Of a stretch of DNA of 64,000 bases, positions 365 through 59,733 are shown piece after piece. The first letter of the stretch is position 1. Each line of letters opens with the position of its first letter. Origin of the DNA: Bacteroidales bacterium (lineage in GTDB: Bacteria > Bacteroidota > Bacteroidia > Bacteroidales > P3); assembly GCA_017934545.1 (NCBI GenBank), contig JAGBJI010000012.1, positions 1 through 64,000 on the forward strand, read 5' to 3'. The position numbers and the translations under genes are program-made. Below the pieces are notes generated by a model that saw nothing but the letters and a program-made list of their open reading frames with translations, ran no database searches and had not been told where the DNA came from.

Positions 365-481
365 GTTTTTGCCGAACGGCGTTTCAGTAATAAAAAAAGC
401 AGGTTTTTTCACTCAAAAAAAGTGGTTTTTTAATAGAAAAAACCACTTTTTTTGACCGTTAAAACGTCCTTCGGCAAAAAC
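365..481. repeat. Nested inverted-repeat intergenic element (word variant 1)
   Basis: Three short cores, GCAGG (399-403), GTGG (422-425) and CCAC (443-446), are each preceded by six or seven A and followed by six or seven T, at roughly 22-bp steps. The last two form a perfect 17-bp stem (415-431 with 437-453). Outside them an imperfect inverted repeat pairs GTTTTTGCCGAACGGCGTTT (from 365) with AAACGTCCTTCGGCAAAAAC (to about 481). It belongs structurally with the other 22-bp-spaced intergenic elements in this window but uses different core words. Function unknown. Confidence 0.6.
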
Positions 482-540
482 AAAACGTCGCCCGGCAAGT
501 TTTTTTTCGTTTTTAACAACGTCAGAAATCGCATGATAAA

Positions 541-6494: not shown

Positions 6495-6559
6495 TTTGTT
6501 CAATTTGTTCAGAATCATTTTGCAAAAATACAAAATAAAGAATTGCTTTATGCATTCAC

Positions 6560-6602
6560 CGAAAAAAAATACATATGTTTTTTCATTTTACTTTCTGAAA
6601 AC
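6560..6602. repeat. CATATG intergenic element, one-core remnant
   Basis: A single CATATG core (6572-6577) sits between an A-tract and a T-tract and is followed by CTTTCTGAAAAC, the same right-hand end as in the larger elements. It lies between two minus-strand genes. Confidence 0.65.
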
Positions 6603-6668
6603 AAATTGTAAGTATTTGAAACCGTTGCTGTGTTTGCGGGTATCATTTCCGTATAATTAAAAAACAAA

Positions 6669-10298: not shown

Positions 10299-10310
10299 AT
10301 TTTTAAACTC

Positions 10311-10432
10311 TTTTCAGAAAAGAGAAATAAAAAAACATATGTATTTTTTCAAAAAAACATATGAATTTTAATCAAAAAACATATGTTTTTTACTTCAAAT
10401 ACATATGTTTTTTCAAAACGGATTCAGAAAAC
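10311..10432. repeat. CATATG intergenic element, four cores
   Basis: CATATG at 10336, 10358, 10380 and 10402, exactly 22 bp apart, each with an A-tract to the left and mostly a T-tract to the right. Bounded by TTTTCAGAAAAG on the left and GATTCAGAAAAC on the right; two more TTTTCTGAAAA / TTTTCAGAAAA copies follow to about 10476. Lies between divergent genes. Confidence 0.85.
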
Positions 10433-10544
10433 AATTTTTTCTTTTCTGAAAACGATTTTTTCTTTTCAGAAAAGAGTTTTGAAAATCCGGTGTTCTTTTT
10501 TGACGTTTTAAAGCGTTTTGTCCAATTTTTTGCCGACACACTTC

Positions 10545-20869: not shown

Positions 20870-21281
20870 AAAGCCGTTTATGCCTTTATCCTACTCAATT
20901 ACGTTTATACTTTTTTGCAATAAAAATGCAAAGATACGCAAATTAACCCGAACAATCCCCTACTCTTCCGCCGACAAAGCATTTATTACAATTATATCTT
21001 TACTTTTTACAATTGATGCTTTACACTTTGCCGTATTATTTTCAGAATCCGTTTTCAAAAAACATATGTATTTTTTCAAAAAAACATATGAATTTTTATA
21101 AAAAAACATATGTTTTTCGTTTCAAAAACATATGTTTTTTATTTTTACTTTCTGAAAAGAATTTTTTACGGCGGCATTTTTTCGGAGGTATTGCGTCGTT
21201 TGAGTATAAATTTATTCAGCAAATACAACAGTTTAAATAATTTTTTGTACCTTTGCACACCGATATACAAAACATTAACAT
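20870..21281. other. Intergenic region between MATE and rsfS genes
   Basis: Divergent promoters lie at the two ends: minus-strand TATCTTTG at 20929-20936 and plus-strand TACCTTTG at 21248-21255. Between them is a four-core CATATG element (21039-21159). Nothing else recognised. Confidence 0.6.
21039..21159. repeat. CATATG intergenic element, four cores
   Basis: CATATG at 21063, 21085, 21107 and 21129, spaced by exactly 22 bp, with A-tracts left and T-tracts right. Bounded by TTTTCAGAATCCG and CTTTCTGAAAAG. Nearly identical to the elements at 29402, 56513 and 10311. Confidence 0.88.
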
Positions 21282-29244: not shown

Positions 29245-29401
29245 CACTTATAGTATTTGATTAAGAAGTTGCAAAATTACAATAATAAATAATAAAACAA
29301 CATTATTTTTTAACAGTTTTTGACTTATCCCCCGCCCTTTTTGCATGAAAACGCCCCGCTTACGCCGATAATTTTTCCCGTTTCACAAAAGGAAAAATCC
29401 T

Positions 29402-29521
29402 TTTCTGAATCCGTTTTTAAAAAACATATGTATTTTTTCAAAAAAACATATGAATTTTAATCAAAAAACATATGTTTTTCGTTTCAAAAACATATGTTTT
29501 TTATTTTTCGATTCTGAAAAC
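29402..29521. repeat. CATATG intergenic element, four cores
   Basis: CATATG at 29425, 29447, 29469 and 29491, exactly 22 bp apart. Bounded by TTTTCTGAATCCG and GATTCTGAAAAC. Almost the same sequence as the element at 21039. Confidence 0.88.
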
Positions 29522-29604
29522 AATTTATTTTCTATTGTGCTTGACCTACCCTTTGGTCACATTATTCAAAGTTTACGGAGAATTGATTTTTTCAAAATAA
29601 AATA

Positions 29605-35444: not shown

Positions 35445-36047
35445 ATATTGTTTTATATTTATAAAATACTGTTTCAATGCTTTGCCGTCAAAGCGGCGGC
35501 ATATTTTTTTGTTTCTCTTTGCATGTTTTGTTTGCATGCAATTGCTGCAAAAGCAAACAATGCGTAAAAAATATTAATACAAAGTGATGAAAATTGTGTA
35601 ATTGAAGAAAAAATGTCAGTCATACCACAAACAAAGGGAAATGATTGCTAAGGCCTCTTGTTTTTCAAACAAAAAGCATGTACCGATATGACTTGTCTGC
35701 AATTTACCCCTGTACATTATATATGTATTTTGACTTTGCAAAATTACAAAATATTCACTTTTTACGGATTAAATTAATTCTTTTTTTTCTCCCTTTATCT
35801 TTTATCAGCATCTCCCTTTCATTTAGCCCGAATATTTAAAAAAGTAAAAAATCCAATTCAGAAAGTAAAATGAAAAAACATATGTATTTTTTCAAAAAAA
35901 CATATGTTTTTTATTTTTAGATTCTGAAAACAACTGTCTGCACGGTATATATACACTTGTAAAAGCGGGTGGTTGAATTTTTTTTACAGTAGGTATGATA
36001 TTTTTTAGTATCTTTGCACATAATTAAACAATCATATTTTTTACACT
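35445..36047. other. Intergenic region between MFS and alpha/beta-hydrolase genes
   Basis: Holds the long leader of the MFS gene with its -7 box at 35739-35746 (minus), a two-core CATATG element (35857-35931), and a plus-strand -7 box TATCTTTG (36009-36016) for the hydrolase operon. No gene seen. Confidence 0.6.
35857..35931. repeat. CATATG intergenic element, two cores (contracted)
   Basis: CATATG at 35879 and 35901, 22 bp apart. Bounded by TTCAGAAAGT and GATTCTGAAAAC. It equals the first and last units of the four-core form, as if the two middle units had been lost by recombination between repeats. Confidence 0.85.
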
Positions 36048-36854: not shown

Positions 36855-39800
36855 ATGGATTTTACCAAGGGTGCGATAACCAAAAATATTTTTTTGTTCA
36901 GCATTCCACTGATACTCGGCAACCTTTTCCAACAACTGTATACGCTTGTCAACAGTGCATTTGTGGGAAGTTATCTCGGGGTAAGCGAACTTGCCGCCGT
37001 CGGAGCGTGCTATCCCGTGGTGTTTTTCATAACTTCCATGATTTTAGGCATAGGAACGGGCGGCAGCGTGGTGGTTTCGCACCATTACGGAGCCAAAAAC
37101 TTTAAGTGCATACATGACATTATCAGTACGTTTTATATATTTTTCACAGTATTGGGACTGCTTGTCTGTGCGTTGAGCATAATCTTTGCCGACAAAATCT
37201 TTTGCCTGCTGAACATGCAGGCCGATGTCCGCATGTATGCCGTACAATATTTCCGCATATACATGGCGGGAATGTTTTTCTCGGTACTGTTTCACTCTGC
37301 GGTGAGCATTTTAAGGGGATTGGGCGACTCGGTAACGCAGCTTTATTTCCTTATTCCAGCCAATATTCTCAACGCCGTGTTGTCGTACGTGTTTATCGTC
37401 CGCATGCATTGGGGTATTGAATCGTCGGCAGTGGCAAGTTTAATTTCCCAATTCATTGCTTTTGCGGGCATTTTCTCGTATCTGCCGCACAAAAACGAAT
37501 ACGTAAAACTGCCGTTCAAACATATGGTGTTTGACAAACATTATTTCAAAGACATTATCTCTATAGGCATTCCTACGGGTATACAACAAAGCGTGGTGTC
37601 TTTGACACAGATACTTATATTGTGGCTTGTGGTGGGTTTCGGAACAGATGCCACGGCGGCATATTCGGCAGCCATGCGTATAGAGTCCATAGCCCTTTTG
37701 TTCGTTTTAAACATTTCGCAGGCGTTGACCTCTTGCACAGGCATGAATATAGGAGCTGGGTTAGTGCAAAGGGCAAAGAGCGGATTTAAGTCTTCATTGA
37801 AGATAATGGGCGGCGTTTCCGTTGTAACGATGGCGGTTTTCTGCGGATTGGGCAGGCAGTTGATGGGTTTGTTTACAGACAGTGAGGCGGTAATCAGCAT
37901 AGGCACACAATATTTATTGGTTTCTGGGCTGTTCTGGTTTGTTTTCTGCCATCAGATGATGTACACCGCTTTTTTCAGAGGTGCAGGCAAGGCTACGGTT
38001 ACTATGGTTATCAGCATATTGTCGCTGTGGATTGTCAGGTATCCTGTATCTTATTGGTTGAGTTTAAAGTATAATACTATGGGAATATGGATGGGAGCCC
38101 CTGTTGCGTGGTTGACGGGCGTGATTATTTATTTGATTGTGTTCAAATCTGACAAATGGTACAACAAAAACATGGTAAAAACTTTTATCTTTGCCGTAAT
38201 CATGGCTTCGGGGTTGTTTTCCTGCTCTCCGAAGGCACAACAGCAAAGCACAACGGCGGTAAACGATGATGAAATTCAGAAGTTGCATGCCTTGTATCCG
38301 CAGGATGCTTTCATTTCTCCGCTGAAAATTCCGCTTACTCTTGCAGGAACTTTCGCCGAATTGCGTGGGTCGCACTTCCATTCGGGCATTGACATCCGTA
38401 CAAACGAAACAACGGGTTACGCAGTCATAGCCCCTGCCGACGGATACGTATCACGTATAAAAATACAAGCCTACGGAGGAGGAAAAAATCTGTACATAAC
38501 CCACCCCAACGGCTATACAACGGTTTATATGCACCTGAGCCAATATTCAGGTAAGATTGGGGAGTTTGTAAAACAATATCAATATGGCAAACATTGCTAT
38601 ACATTTGATTATACTTTCACAAAACCGCAAATTTATGTAAAACGCGGCGACACTATAGCCTTAAGCGGTGAAACGGGAATGGTACAAGGACCTCATCTTC
38701 ACTTTGAAATCCGTGACACAAAGACCGAACAACCCATCAATCCGTTGCTTTTCGGGTTGCAGGTTAAGGATTCCACTCCGCCTTACATACAATCTTTGGC
38801 TTTAACTCCGTACAAAAATTCTTCCGTTGAGGGAAAACAATCCGCAAAGATTATAAACATAAGCAGTGATACTTCGTTTCATCAGGGCGATACCGTGGAA
38901 TGTTCCGGCAACGTGTATTTTTCCGTCCTTGCATACGACCCTTCGTTCCGCTCCACCATGCGTAACGGAGTATGGAAAACGGAATTGCTTGTCGGCGATA
39001 CGGTGATTTTTTCCCACCATGTAGAGAAATTTTCTTTCAATGATTACGGTTATGTAGATGCAACGATAAACTATCCGCTATACATTCAGAGCGGCAAACG
39101 CTATCTTTGCTCAAAACAAAAAGAAAACGGCATTTTGCCGTTCAACACTTATAAAAATAAAGGTATACTTTGCGTAAAAACCGACAGCATTTACAGAATT
39201 ACATGGCGGTTTTCAGATTTAAAAGCCAATAAATACGAATACTATTTCTTTGTAAAGGGGGTTGAGGATTCTGCATTGGTGAACAAAGAACAGAAAAAAC
39301 CTAACACAAAATTTTTCAATTGCAAAGACAAAAACATGTATACCGCTTCCGACGGAAGTATTTTCACCTTTCCGACAGGTGCGTTGTACGAAAGCATTGA
39401 TTTTTCTTATTCAAAAAGTCAGGGAAAGTTTTCCGACAAGCATACGCTGCACACTGTTTACGAGCCGGTCAGAAAAAAATTCAACATAAAGATAAAACCT
39501 TATAAAATAAATCAGAACTTAAAAAGCAAATACTTGATTGTAAAGACGGACAGTAAGGGAAGAATGTCTTCAATAGGCGGAGAACTTAAATCCGATTACG
39601 TAGAGGCTTCGGCAGGAAGTTTCGGTACTTACACAGTGTGGATGGATACCGTCGCTCCTGTGATAAAAGCCGTGAATTTCAAGACAAACAAAACGCTTAC
39701 ATCCAAACAAAAAACCTTGAAAATCAAAATCAGTGACAATCTTTCGGGCATCAATTCTTACAATGCCTATCTTAACGGACAATGGATTCTGACCGAGTTT

Positions 39801-39950
39801 GACGGAAAACGCTCAATGTTGACATATAATATAGATAAACATATGAAAAAAGGGAAAAATACGCTTAAAATTGTAGTTTCCGATGCAAAAGGAAATACAA
39901 AAACCGCCGTTTTTTCCGTACATAACAGTATTGAAAGAGCAACAAAATGA
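36855..39950 (+). CDS. MATE transporter fused in frame to M23 metallopeptidase lipoprotein
   Basis: One open frame of 1031 residues. Residues 1-435 are a complete 12-segment MATE exporter (NIFLFSIPLILGNLFQQLYT), ending in VFKSDKWYNKN. From M440 a lipoprotein-like signal follows (MVKTFIFAVIMASGLFSC, Cys457), then an M23/LytM domain with H509xxxD513 in HFHSGID, MHLS, and HLHFE at 615-619, then Ig-like beta domains. As a fusion, the signal would act as a 13th helix and put the peptidase in the periplasm, which fits MATE topology. Alternatively the ATG at 38172 starts a separate 592-residue lipoprotein. The codon count between the parts shows no stop and no overlap. Confidence 0.85.
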   Translation: MDFTKGAITKNIFLFSIPLILGNLFQQLYTLVNSAFVGSYLGVSELAAVGACYPVVFFITSMILGIGTGGSVVVSHHYGAKNFKCIHDIISTFYIFFTVLGLLVCALSIIFADKIFCLLNMQADVRMYAVQYFRIYMAGMFFSVLFHSAVSILRGLGDSVTQLYFLIPANILNAVLSYVFIVRMHWGIESSAVASLISQFIAFAGIFSYLPHKNEYVKLPFKHMVFDKHYFKDIISIGIPTGIQQSVVSLTQILILWLVVGFGTDATAAYSAAMRIESIALLFVLNISQALTSCTGMNIGAGLVQRAKSGFKSSLKIMGGVSVVTMAVFCGLGRQLMGLFTDSEAVISIGTQYLLVSGLFWFVFCHQMMYTAFFRGAGKATVTMVISILSLWIVRYPVSYWLSLKYNTMGIWMGAPVAWLTGVIIYLIVFKSDKWYNKNMVKTFIFAVIMASGLFSCSPKAQQQSTTAVNDDEIQKLHALYPQDAFISPLKIPLTLAGTFAELRGSHFHSGIDIRTNETTGYAVIAPADGYVSRIKIQAYGGGKNLYITHPNGYTTVYMHLSQYSGKIGEFVKQYQYGKHCYTFDYTFTKPQIYVKRGDTIALSGETGMVQGPHLHFEIRDTKTEQPINPLLFGLQVKDSTPPYIQSLALTPYKNSSVEGKQSAKIINISSDTSFHQGDTVECSGNVYFSVLAYDPSFRSTMRNGVWKTELLVGDTVIFSHHVEKFSFNDYGYVDATINYPLYIQSGKRYLCSKQKENGILPFNTYKNKGILCVKTDSIYRITWRFSDLKANKYEYYFFVKGVEDSALVNKEQKKPNTKFFNCKDKNMYTASDGSIFTFPTGALYESIDFSYSKSQGKFSDKHTLHTVYEPVRKKFNIKIKPYKINQNLKSKYLIVKTDSKGRMSSIGGELKSDYVEASAGSFGTYTVWMDTVAPVIKAVNFKTNKTLTSKQKTLKIKISDNLSGINSYNAYLNGQWILTEFDGKRSMLTYNIDKHMKKGKNTLKIVVSDAKGNTKTAVFSVHNSIERATK

Positions 39951-43227: not shown

Positions 43228-43290
43228 AACGCCGTTTATTTAAAAAGCAAAGGTAATATAAAAAAATTAATTTCTGACTCCAATTCCGCC

Positions 43291-43374
43291 CTTTCAGAAA
43301 AGAATCTTAAAAAAATCAGATTTTTTGACCGAAAAAACCTATTTTTTTACTGCAAAAAATGTGATTTTTTTGAC
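43291..43374. repeat. 22-bp-spaced intergenic element (word variant 2)
   Basis: Three cores, TCAGA (43316-43320), CCTAT (43338-43342) and TGTGA (43360-43364), each with six or seven A before and T after. Their centres are exactly 22 bp apart. The left end is CTTTCAGAAAAG, as in the CATATG elements. Lies between two minus-strand genes. Confidence 0.75.
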
Positions 43375-43479
43375 ATTACTTTCGCAAGGGGCAAAAACAT
43401 AATGCGAAGGGGCGGCAGCAAAACTGCAAAGGGCAAAAATACAACGACAGAGTAAAACCGTCAAACAAAAAAAAGAAGG

Positions 43480-50022: not shown

Positions 50023-50049
50023 CCGCTTTTTTGCGGTTTTTAAATTTTC

Positions 50050-50147
50050 TTTTCTGAAAGTAAAATTAAAAAACATATGTATTTTTTCAAAAAAACATAT
50101 GAATTTTAATAAAAAAACATATGTTTTTTTTTAATGGTTTCTGAAAA
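50050..50147. repeat. CATATG intergenic element, three cores
   Basis: CATATG at 50074, 50096 and 50118, each 22 bp apart. Bounded by TTTTCTGAAAGTAAAATT and GTTTCTGAAAAG. The fourth unit is replaced by a long T run and AATGG. Confidence 0.85.
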
Positions 50148-50324
50148 GGATTTTTATAAACGCAATTTAAAACTCAATATACCTTAATATATATAAGGTA
50201 AAATTTCTGTTGCGGAAAATAAAAATACGAGGCAGCGGTTTTAAATCCAAAAACCCGACCGTAAACATACAACACCGTACCGTCAAAGAATAAAAACACT
50301 TGCCTTAAATAAAAACTAAAAAAC

Positions 50325-56461: not shown

Positions 56462-56512
56462 ACTTTACTCAACGGTCGGTCACTGCATTTAAGCATACAC
56501 TCTCTTATATAA

Positions 56513-56632
56513 ATTCAGAAAACAGTTTGAAAAAACATATGTATTTTTTCAAAAAAACATATGAATTTTAATCAAAAAACATATGTTTTTCGTTTCAAAA
56601 ACATATGTTTTTTGATTTTTCTTTTCCGAAAA
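56513..56632. repeat. CATATG intergenic element, four cores
   Basis: CATATG at 56536, 56558, 56580 and 56602, all 22 bp apart. Bounded by ATTCAGAAAACAG and CTTTTCCGAAAAC. Lies between convergent genes (rlmB and lpxA). Confidence 0.88.
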
Positions 56633-56654
56633 CAATTCTCTTTTTTAAGTAAAT

Positions 56655-59552: not shown

Positions 59553-59652
59553 GATTCAGAAAACAATCTTAAAAAAATAGGTTTTTTGTAGTAAAAAACC
59601 TATTTTTTTGATGCAAAAAACCTATTTTTTTTCAAACTCTTTTCAGAAAAGG
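59553..59652. repeat. 22-bp-spaced intergenic element (word variant 3)
   Basis: ATAGG (59577-59581), CCTAT (59599-59603) and CCTAT (59621-59625) with centres 22 bp apart, each with A-tract before and T-tract after. The first two form a hairpin. Bounded by GATTCAGAAAAC and TTTTCAGAAAAG, the same ends as the CATATG elements. Lies between convergent genes. Confidence 0.78.
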
Positions 59653-59733
59653 CAAAATTGTATTCTGAATCTACGGCGGTGTTCTCTGAATTTACCGACA
59701 CAATATCCGTATTCCGCACCGTCATACACACAC

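Follow-up and report, generated by a model that had tools for sequence, protein, structure and literature searches.

The nearest described element found for the repeats analyzed here is BrickBuilt of Porphyromonas gingivalis. According to its description (PMC4596501), it is a dispersed intergenic 23-nt direct repeat, present in 19 copies of 1 to 22.8 units, with ends closest to ISPg1/ISPg9 and target-site duplications (TSDs) at three of the four copies that have both ends. The CATATG elements described below appear to share with it the occurrence in Bacteroidales, the intergenic location, a near-helical direct repeat between ends with small inverted repeats, and a varying unit number. When the consensus published there is placed in tandem, a TCTCRTRTGAGA dyad (CATATG if R=A) appears together with a weaker second dyad 11.5 nt off. 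In contrast, the step is 22 and not 23, the BrickBuilt unit is not wholly palindromic, and the IS-like ends and TSDs belong to BrickBuilt, neither being seen in the CATATG elements.

The REP/BIME and REPIN families with RAYT, as described in PMC2817692, are high-copy short intergenic palindromes in regular, alternating orientation, and these features were found here as well. They differ from the present elements, for which no RAYT was found in the genome of origin (G000) or its sister species (G009), the unit is 22 bp long with A/T tracts, and copies also lie between divergent genes. MITEs are likewise short, AT-rich and intergenic with symmetric ends, whereas here no clear TSD and, in a search for Y1 transposases, no partner element were found. 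Probable iterons of phage origins carry CATATG in helical phase too, but inside replication-initiator-like genes, mostly at 11-bp steps and not dispersed. A 22-bp CATATG array in Bacteroidales was undescribed in the titles and abstract openings of the best-ranked open-licence literature matches. Similarly, no published account of the cross-lineage 22-bp grid and the sister-species core contrast reported below was found in the open-licence literature searched.

Structure, census and placement of the element

CATATG occurs 38 times in the 64-kb window (the whole stretch of DNA analyzed) against 20.7 expected from base composition, and 22 of these 38 occurrences fall within seven intergenic sites holding 1, 4, 4, 4, 2, 3, and 4 cores (Table 1). 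The first-pass annotation had named these sites and reported a strict core spacing. All seven are present, and 15/15 adjacent core pairs are 22 bp apart, with ~0.02 such pairs expected by chance.

Table 1. Positions in the window of CATATG elements, arrays of the second repeat family and an adjoining row of dyads.
Feature	Positions	Strand	Description
Second-family array	370..490		three A6-core-T6 units (GCAGG, GTGG, CCAC), 21-22.5 bp, complementary arms
One-core copy	6539..6610		core 6572; right end discernible
138-bp element, 33-bp ends	10303..10440	+	four CATATG cores 10336, 10358, 10380, 10402
TTTTCWGAAAA dyads	10440..10490		21-bp steps, adjoining the 10336 element
138-bp element	21030..21167	+	four CATATG cores 21063, 21085, 21107, 21129
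138-bp element	29392..29529	+	cores 29425, 29447, 29469, 29491; divergent neighbours topoisomerase-like / DUF349
Two-core element	35846..35939	+	cores 35879, 35901; minus two units, ends discernible
Second-family array	43280..43395		cores TCAGA, CCTA, TGTGA; 21.5-22.5 bp
Three-core element	50041..50156	+	cores 50074, 50096, 50118; minus one 22-bp unit, ends discernible; upstream of methylmalonyl-CoA mutase-like gene
138-bp element	56503..56640	+	cores 56536, 56558, 56580, 56602; convergent neighbours SpoU methylase-like / hexapeptide acyltransferase-like
Second-family array	59560..59665		cores TAGG, CCTA, CCTA; 21-22 bp

The family extends over the whole genome of 2,376,997 bases (14 contigs, listed contamination 8.1), in which 332 pairs and 215 triples of CATATG at 22 bp were counted, against 0 for the reversed control hexamer. 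Outside contig C4, which repeats C7 elements and was excluded from the counts, copies located via exact CATATG pairs gave a catalogue of at least 114 elements (104 four-core, 3 three-core, 4 two-core, and 3 one-core), i.e., ~1 copy per 19 kb. The 322 steps within the catalogued arrays measured 22 bp in 317 cases, 23 bp in 4 and 21 bp in 1. Since these 317 pairs and the 9 of three C4 elements account for 326 of the 332, about two elements lie outside the fetched stretches. A scan of the 64 palindromic hexamers, three in a row at periods 12-40, returned 205 matches at period 22, all of them CATATG, and 1 elsewhere; it covered 688,507 bases selected around elements and not a random sample. When the fetched sequence was searched with a profile, no decayed CATATG copies appeared below E 0.05, the matches being known elements and arrays of the second family. 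Density along contigs is uneven, its variance exceeding the mean two- to threefold. The arrays of C4 and C7 stand at a constant offset of 7440, hence ~189 kb is apparently present twice in the assembly; the end of C4 would fall next to an element.

The element is ~138 bp long and consists of symmetric 33-bp ends flanking a 72-bp core array, conservation reaching 33 bp beyond the outer cores and being near background outside. Its consensus contains, in order, an A-rich end with TTTTCWGAA, a variable module, A6, four CATATG, T6, a variable module and the mirrored end, and the four cores are separated by three different 16-bp spacers. The ends are terminal inverted repeats with a mirrored, degenerate consensus at -33..-16 / +16..+33. 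Across 100 four-core copies, in which the value of 0 for the cores results from copy selection, non-consensus bases amount to 1.3% in the core-adjacent tracts, 22% at the spacer centres, 41% in the flank modules and 30% in the ends. The A-/T-tract flanks and shared TTCWGAA ends noted at the outset are thus real and conserved to ±33 bp, but the ends are variable. A single point-mutated core (C11:146293, recognized by eye in a copy of reduced core number) was found against 436 intact ones.

Among 95 four-core copies, 58 have an identical spacer 1 and 68 an identical spacer 2. Two of the 95 carry spacer 2 inverted, and spacer 3 is found both ways round (CGTTTC 24 / GAAACG 5, TTCTTC 8 / GAAGAA 3, and others). 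Copies with one, two or three cores correspond to losses in unit-sized steps. Given the inverted spacers and the missing units, units seem to flip or drop whole. TTTTCWGAAAA dyads at 21-bp steps, as in the window, were also observed at L044 (C7:250200) and L055 (C10:66410), with a CATATG array beside some of these rows; 13 of 54 such dyads lie at least 60 bp away from any array.

Simple ORF calls place 39 of 105 elements between divergent, 51 between co-directional and 10 between convergent genes, with 4 within an ORF call and 1 at a contig edge. This is in line with the mixed gene context first noted in the window. Neither rarity elsewhere in the genome, nor another prevailing spacing, nor equal frequency inside genes, each of which had been put forward as counting against the family, was observed. 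Compared with the expectation from free intergenic length, 109 elements comprise 41 in divergent (35.8 expected), 55 in tandem (51.9), and 13 in convergent (21.4) context. Placement is therefore close to the prediction from free intergenic length, and an enrichment between divergent genes was not retained. An intrinsic terminator, which had already been judged insufficient to explain all sites, was rejected because the elements are not placed at 3' ends (13 convergent vs 41 divergent) and the stems are AT-rich. The median distance of the elements is 133 bp to start codons and 40 bp to stops, and their orientation is biased against the direction of co-directional genes (35/48, p 0.002).

Sister species, other Bacteroidales and a second repeat family

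Of 121 family genomes, two carry the element type, namely G000 and G009, and a CATATG triple was absent from 60 relatives. The homologous elements of G009, recovered by DNA search, have the 22-bp step and A/T tracts around C....G with the cores CCTATG, CATAGG, and CCNNGG; none of the 70 cores first catalogued there is CATATG. Hence, CATATG is not universal as the core. In the four-core elements of G009, oriented by eye, core 1 is CCTATG and core 3 is CATAGG in 16/16, and core 2 has the CCNNGG form. As cores 2 and 4 vary, recognition of one core would not be absolute. For 5 of 18 G009 elements, counted by eye against ~2 from a hand estimate, a gene end of the type adjoining the element also adjoins one in G000, two of the five resting on weak protein matches (37%, 45%), and part of the element set may consequently be old.

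In a sample of the order, CATATG triples occur in 4 of 393 genomes, G000 included. The control hexamer GTATAC forms 17 triples in G122, where arrays holding 5 to 7 cores keep the 22-bp step while their spacers diverge (L187-L190), and one three-core array in G035 (L196). A four-core scan of 84,980 species gave at least 73 stretches, with 65 Bacteroidales names, 1 Bacteroidetes and 7 others among the matches listed; 20 genomes chosen among these listed matches hold 2-77 CATATG triples each. Spacers are lineage-specific across organisms, a GAA-CATATG-TTC form being common to several Prevotella-type genomes, and G146, from the same order as G000, has an array resembling those in named Prevotella. 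At the spacer centre, 11 bp from the core dyad, 19 of 22 organisms have a dyad exceeding what composition predicts (10 of the 22 being represented by a single array each), the exceptions being Paludibacter, one Prevotellaceae MAG and RUG301. Plain near-identical tandem repeats holding CATATG were found in Psychrobacter (L084, L142) and in G223. The central CATATG unit has 0 matches in viral contigs. Six phage contigs (L154, L158, L160, L163, L164, L166) contain, within ORFs, CATATG cores spaced by 11 or 22 bp; 11 ORFs overlap such arrays, and 5 of the 6 scanned match replication initiator, replisome organizer, primosomal or DnaD-like PHROGs, so that the phage arrays look like origin iterons.

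Besides, a second repeat family is present in G000. The fetched sequence contains 16 of its arrays, all lacking CATATG, and 14 have at least three A6-core-T6 units at ~22 bp. These arrays are mostly three-core, with mixed unit order and orientation, and their frequent cores are CCTA/TAGG, TCAGA/TCTGA, TGTGA/TCACA, GCAGG/CCTGC, and GTGG/CCAC. Further loci outside those of Table 1 are L021, L025, L033, L051, L059, L076, L077, and L176. The congeners G001 and G009 each yielded one three-unit array with different cores. The A6/T6 pattern abounds in G000 and these two congeners, against low levels in the 11 others; among 47 further relatives it is also high in G046, but its listed occurrences there differ from these arrays and consist of simple A/T runs.

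Origin of the repeats and meaning of the 22-bp step

Spread by copying is well supported, since the internal order is shared at unrelated sites, only two species carry the element and the positions mostly differ. We favor, at roughly even chances, the reading that these are modular interspersed repeats of the BIME/BrickBuilt kind, copied into intergenic DNA, whose phased dyads form a platform for a putative oligomeric protein. On this reading, a non-coding repeat has spread by copying through the intergenic DNA of the G000 species and of one sister species. Each copy is a row of 22-bp units with a core dyad and, in most organisms, a second dyad 11 bp off. On such a 22-bp/11-bp grid the same face would be shown once every two helical turns, and a putative oligomeric dyad-binding protein would dock on the evenly spaced sites, either to move the element or to serve the host chromosome. 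Its specificity would drift along with the arrays, which could explain why the 22-bp step is kept while core and spacer letters differ by lineage; a platform protein would also account for a strict step together with freer spacers. The contrast between CATATG and CCTATG/CCNNGG in the sister species, as read from the sequences, suggests that protein specificity may change together with the arrays. Near-invariance of the cores could, instead of binding, stem from homogenization or recent spread. The first-pass annotation had considered that a nucleoid protein or a regulator array may bind.

A selfish non-autonomous MITE, mobilized by a DDE transposase and carrying an array without a role beyond transposition, would fit the symmetric 33-bp ends, the many copies, the restriction to two genomes of the family and the placement near free intergenic length, yet it appears unlikely. 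Some short words are in excess near the ends (for 2-mers, 11 vs 4.6 ± 1.8 at offset -2; for 3-mers, 9 vs 4.8 ± 1.9 at offset 1), but this involves one in ten of the 104 copies in a set of 98 offset/length tests, and words of at least 5 match in at most 1/104 copies at any offset. No clear TSD was found in these 104 copies at any of the offsets tested, where old ones could have decayed. Moreover, the cores are better conserved than the ends, the opposite of what end recognition alone predicts. The MITE-like origin initially offered thus holds as to a dispersed intergenic family, but the strict form, with TSDs and a partner transposon (sought as Y1 only), is unsupported. REP/RAYT membership was ruled out for G000, as no Y1 transposase (PF01797) was matched in G000, in G009 (69% complete) or in 12 other congeners. 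PF01797 was positive in 8 of 30 genomes, all of them array carriers outside the genus (8 of 16 such carriers; outside the genus the test covered array carriers), hence the RAYT test fails for G000 and not for the whole class. The Y1-positive carriers would also suit a folded single strand, i.e., an imperfect hairpin in RNA (terminator, stabilizer) or in ssDNA (HUH-type transposition), which we regard as quite improbable. In folding, 9/9 strands (6 from the CATATG family and 3 from the second family) outperformed each of 200 shuffles, with z ranging from -5.3 to -10.5, but any row of palindromes folds. The arms of the second family pair per locus, with a mean longest run of 12.1 vs 8.8 with other loci (14 arrays; p 1.5e-4, which is rough, the values not being independent), whereas CATATG-family flanks lack per-locus pairing (7.05 vs 7.50, p 0.97) and no hairpin covariation was found in that family. 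At positions 9, 10, and 13 the correlation is negative (z -4.1, -3.7, and -2.3) and pairing of spacer 1 with spacer 3 is below shuffled, two results that mixed interior/end orientation could also explain. In other species, spacer halves pair less than column-shuffled controls do in 12 of 22 organisms, the difference being within error for some; this result was set aside because mixed orientation can produce the same result. The lack of a Y1 match in G000 and G009 and the many copies between divergent genes further argue against folding.

The in-phase bending suggested at first would make the elements intrinsically curved DNA, with A- and T-tracts that alternate at intervals of ~11 bp and shape the chromosome or promoters. 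In a wedge model, G000 elements reach 1.24 vs 1.10 for shuffled sequences, their mean rank among tiles of the window being near the 91st percentile, and curvature drops when the period leaves 20-22; the best modelled period is, however, 21 and not 22. Among 20 other organisms, 6 lie at least 0.1 above their own shuffles (5 of the 6 from one or two arrays), but 9 with a 22-bp step lie below them. Bending is therefore partly supported by the model in G000, but the 22-bp step does not consistently serve it, and as an explanation it is very unlikely. A further doubt concerns the class itself: CATATG arrays elsewhere could be ordinary tandem repeats that contain this hexamer, and the cross-species class unreal. 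The reversed control hexamer gives one strong case (G122) vs three other CATATG genomes among 392, one of these three (G223) is a plain tandem repeat, and the species scan with its at least 73 stretches was run without a control hexamer. Against chance, several genomes keep cores and step while the spacers diverge, at many separate loci, and the second dyad recurs at the spacer centre in 19 of 22 organisms; such a chance origin seems a poor explanation, with little probability left to it.

Extending the platform reading, BrickBuilt and the present family may tentatively be seen, although this is rather doubtful, as local instances of a Bacteroidales-wide, fast-evolving addressing system, in which alternating-dyad arrays on a fixed 22-bp grid would be served by a dedicated, co-changing oligomeric protein. 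If a protein sets the step, the arrays could serve as bait for Bacteroidales proteins of a new class that bind the chromosome or move the element, and the core contrast of two close species would offer a natural test of protein/site co-change. Even if selfish, the elements would represent a repeat class without a transposase found here, relevant to assembly and gene regulation in the species.

Neighboring genes and other features of the window

Within 700 bp of the arrays, the ORFs of the fetched loci from 20 Bacteroidales names and G000 include no candidate for a cis-linked protein gene, and in the same loci no array position is convincingly conserved across organisms. The only gene family near arrays in 4 organisms is array read-through, the others occurring in at most two or three organisms. 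A tRNA is the sole Rfam match at gathering scores in the window, in which type IX secretion domains are also present. These domains, together with the Prevotella-like array of G146, point to a probable placement of the host in Bacteroidales. At 36855-39950, a 1031-aa ORF has an unusual pairing of a MatE match at its start with a peptidase M23 mid-protein.
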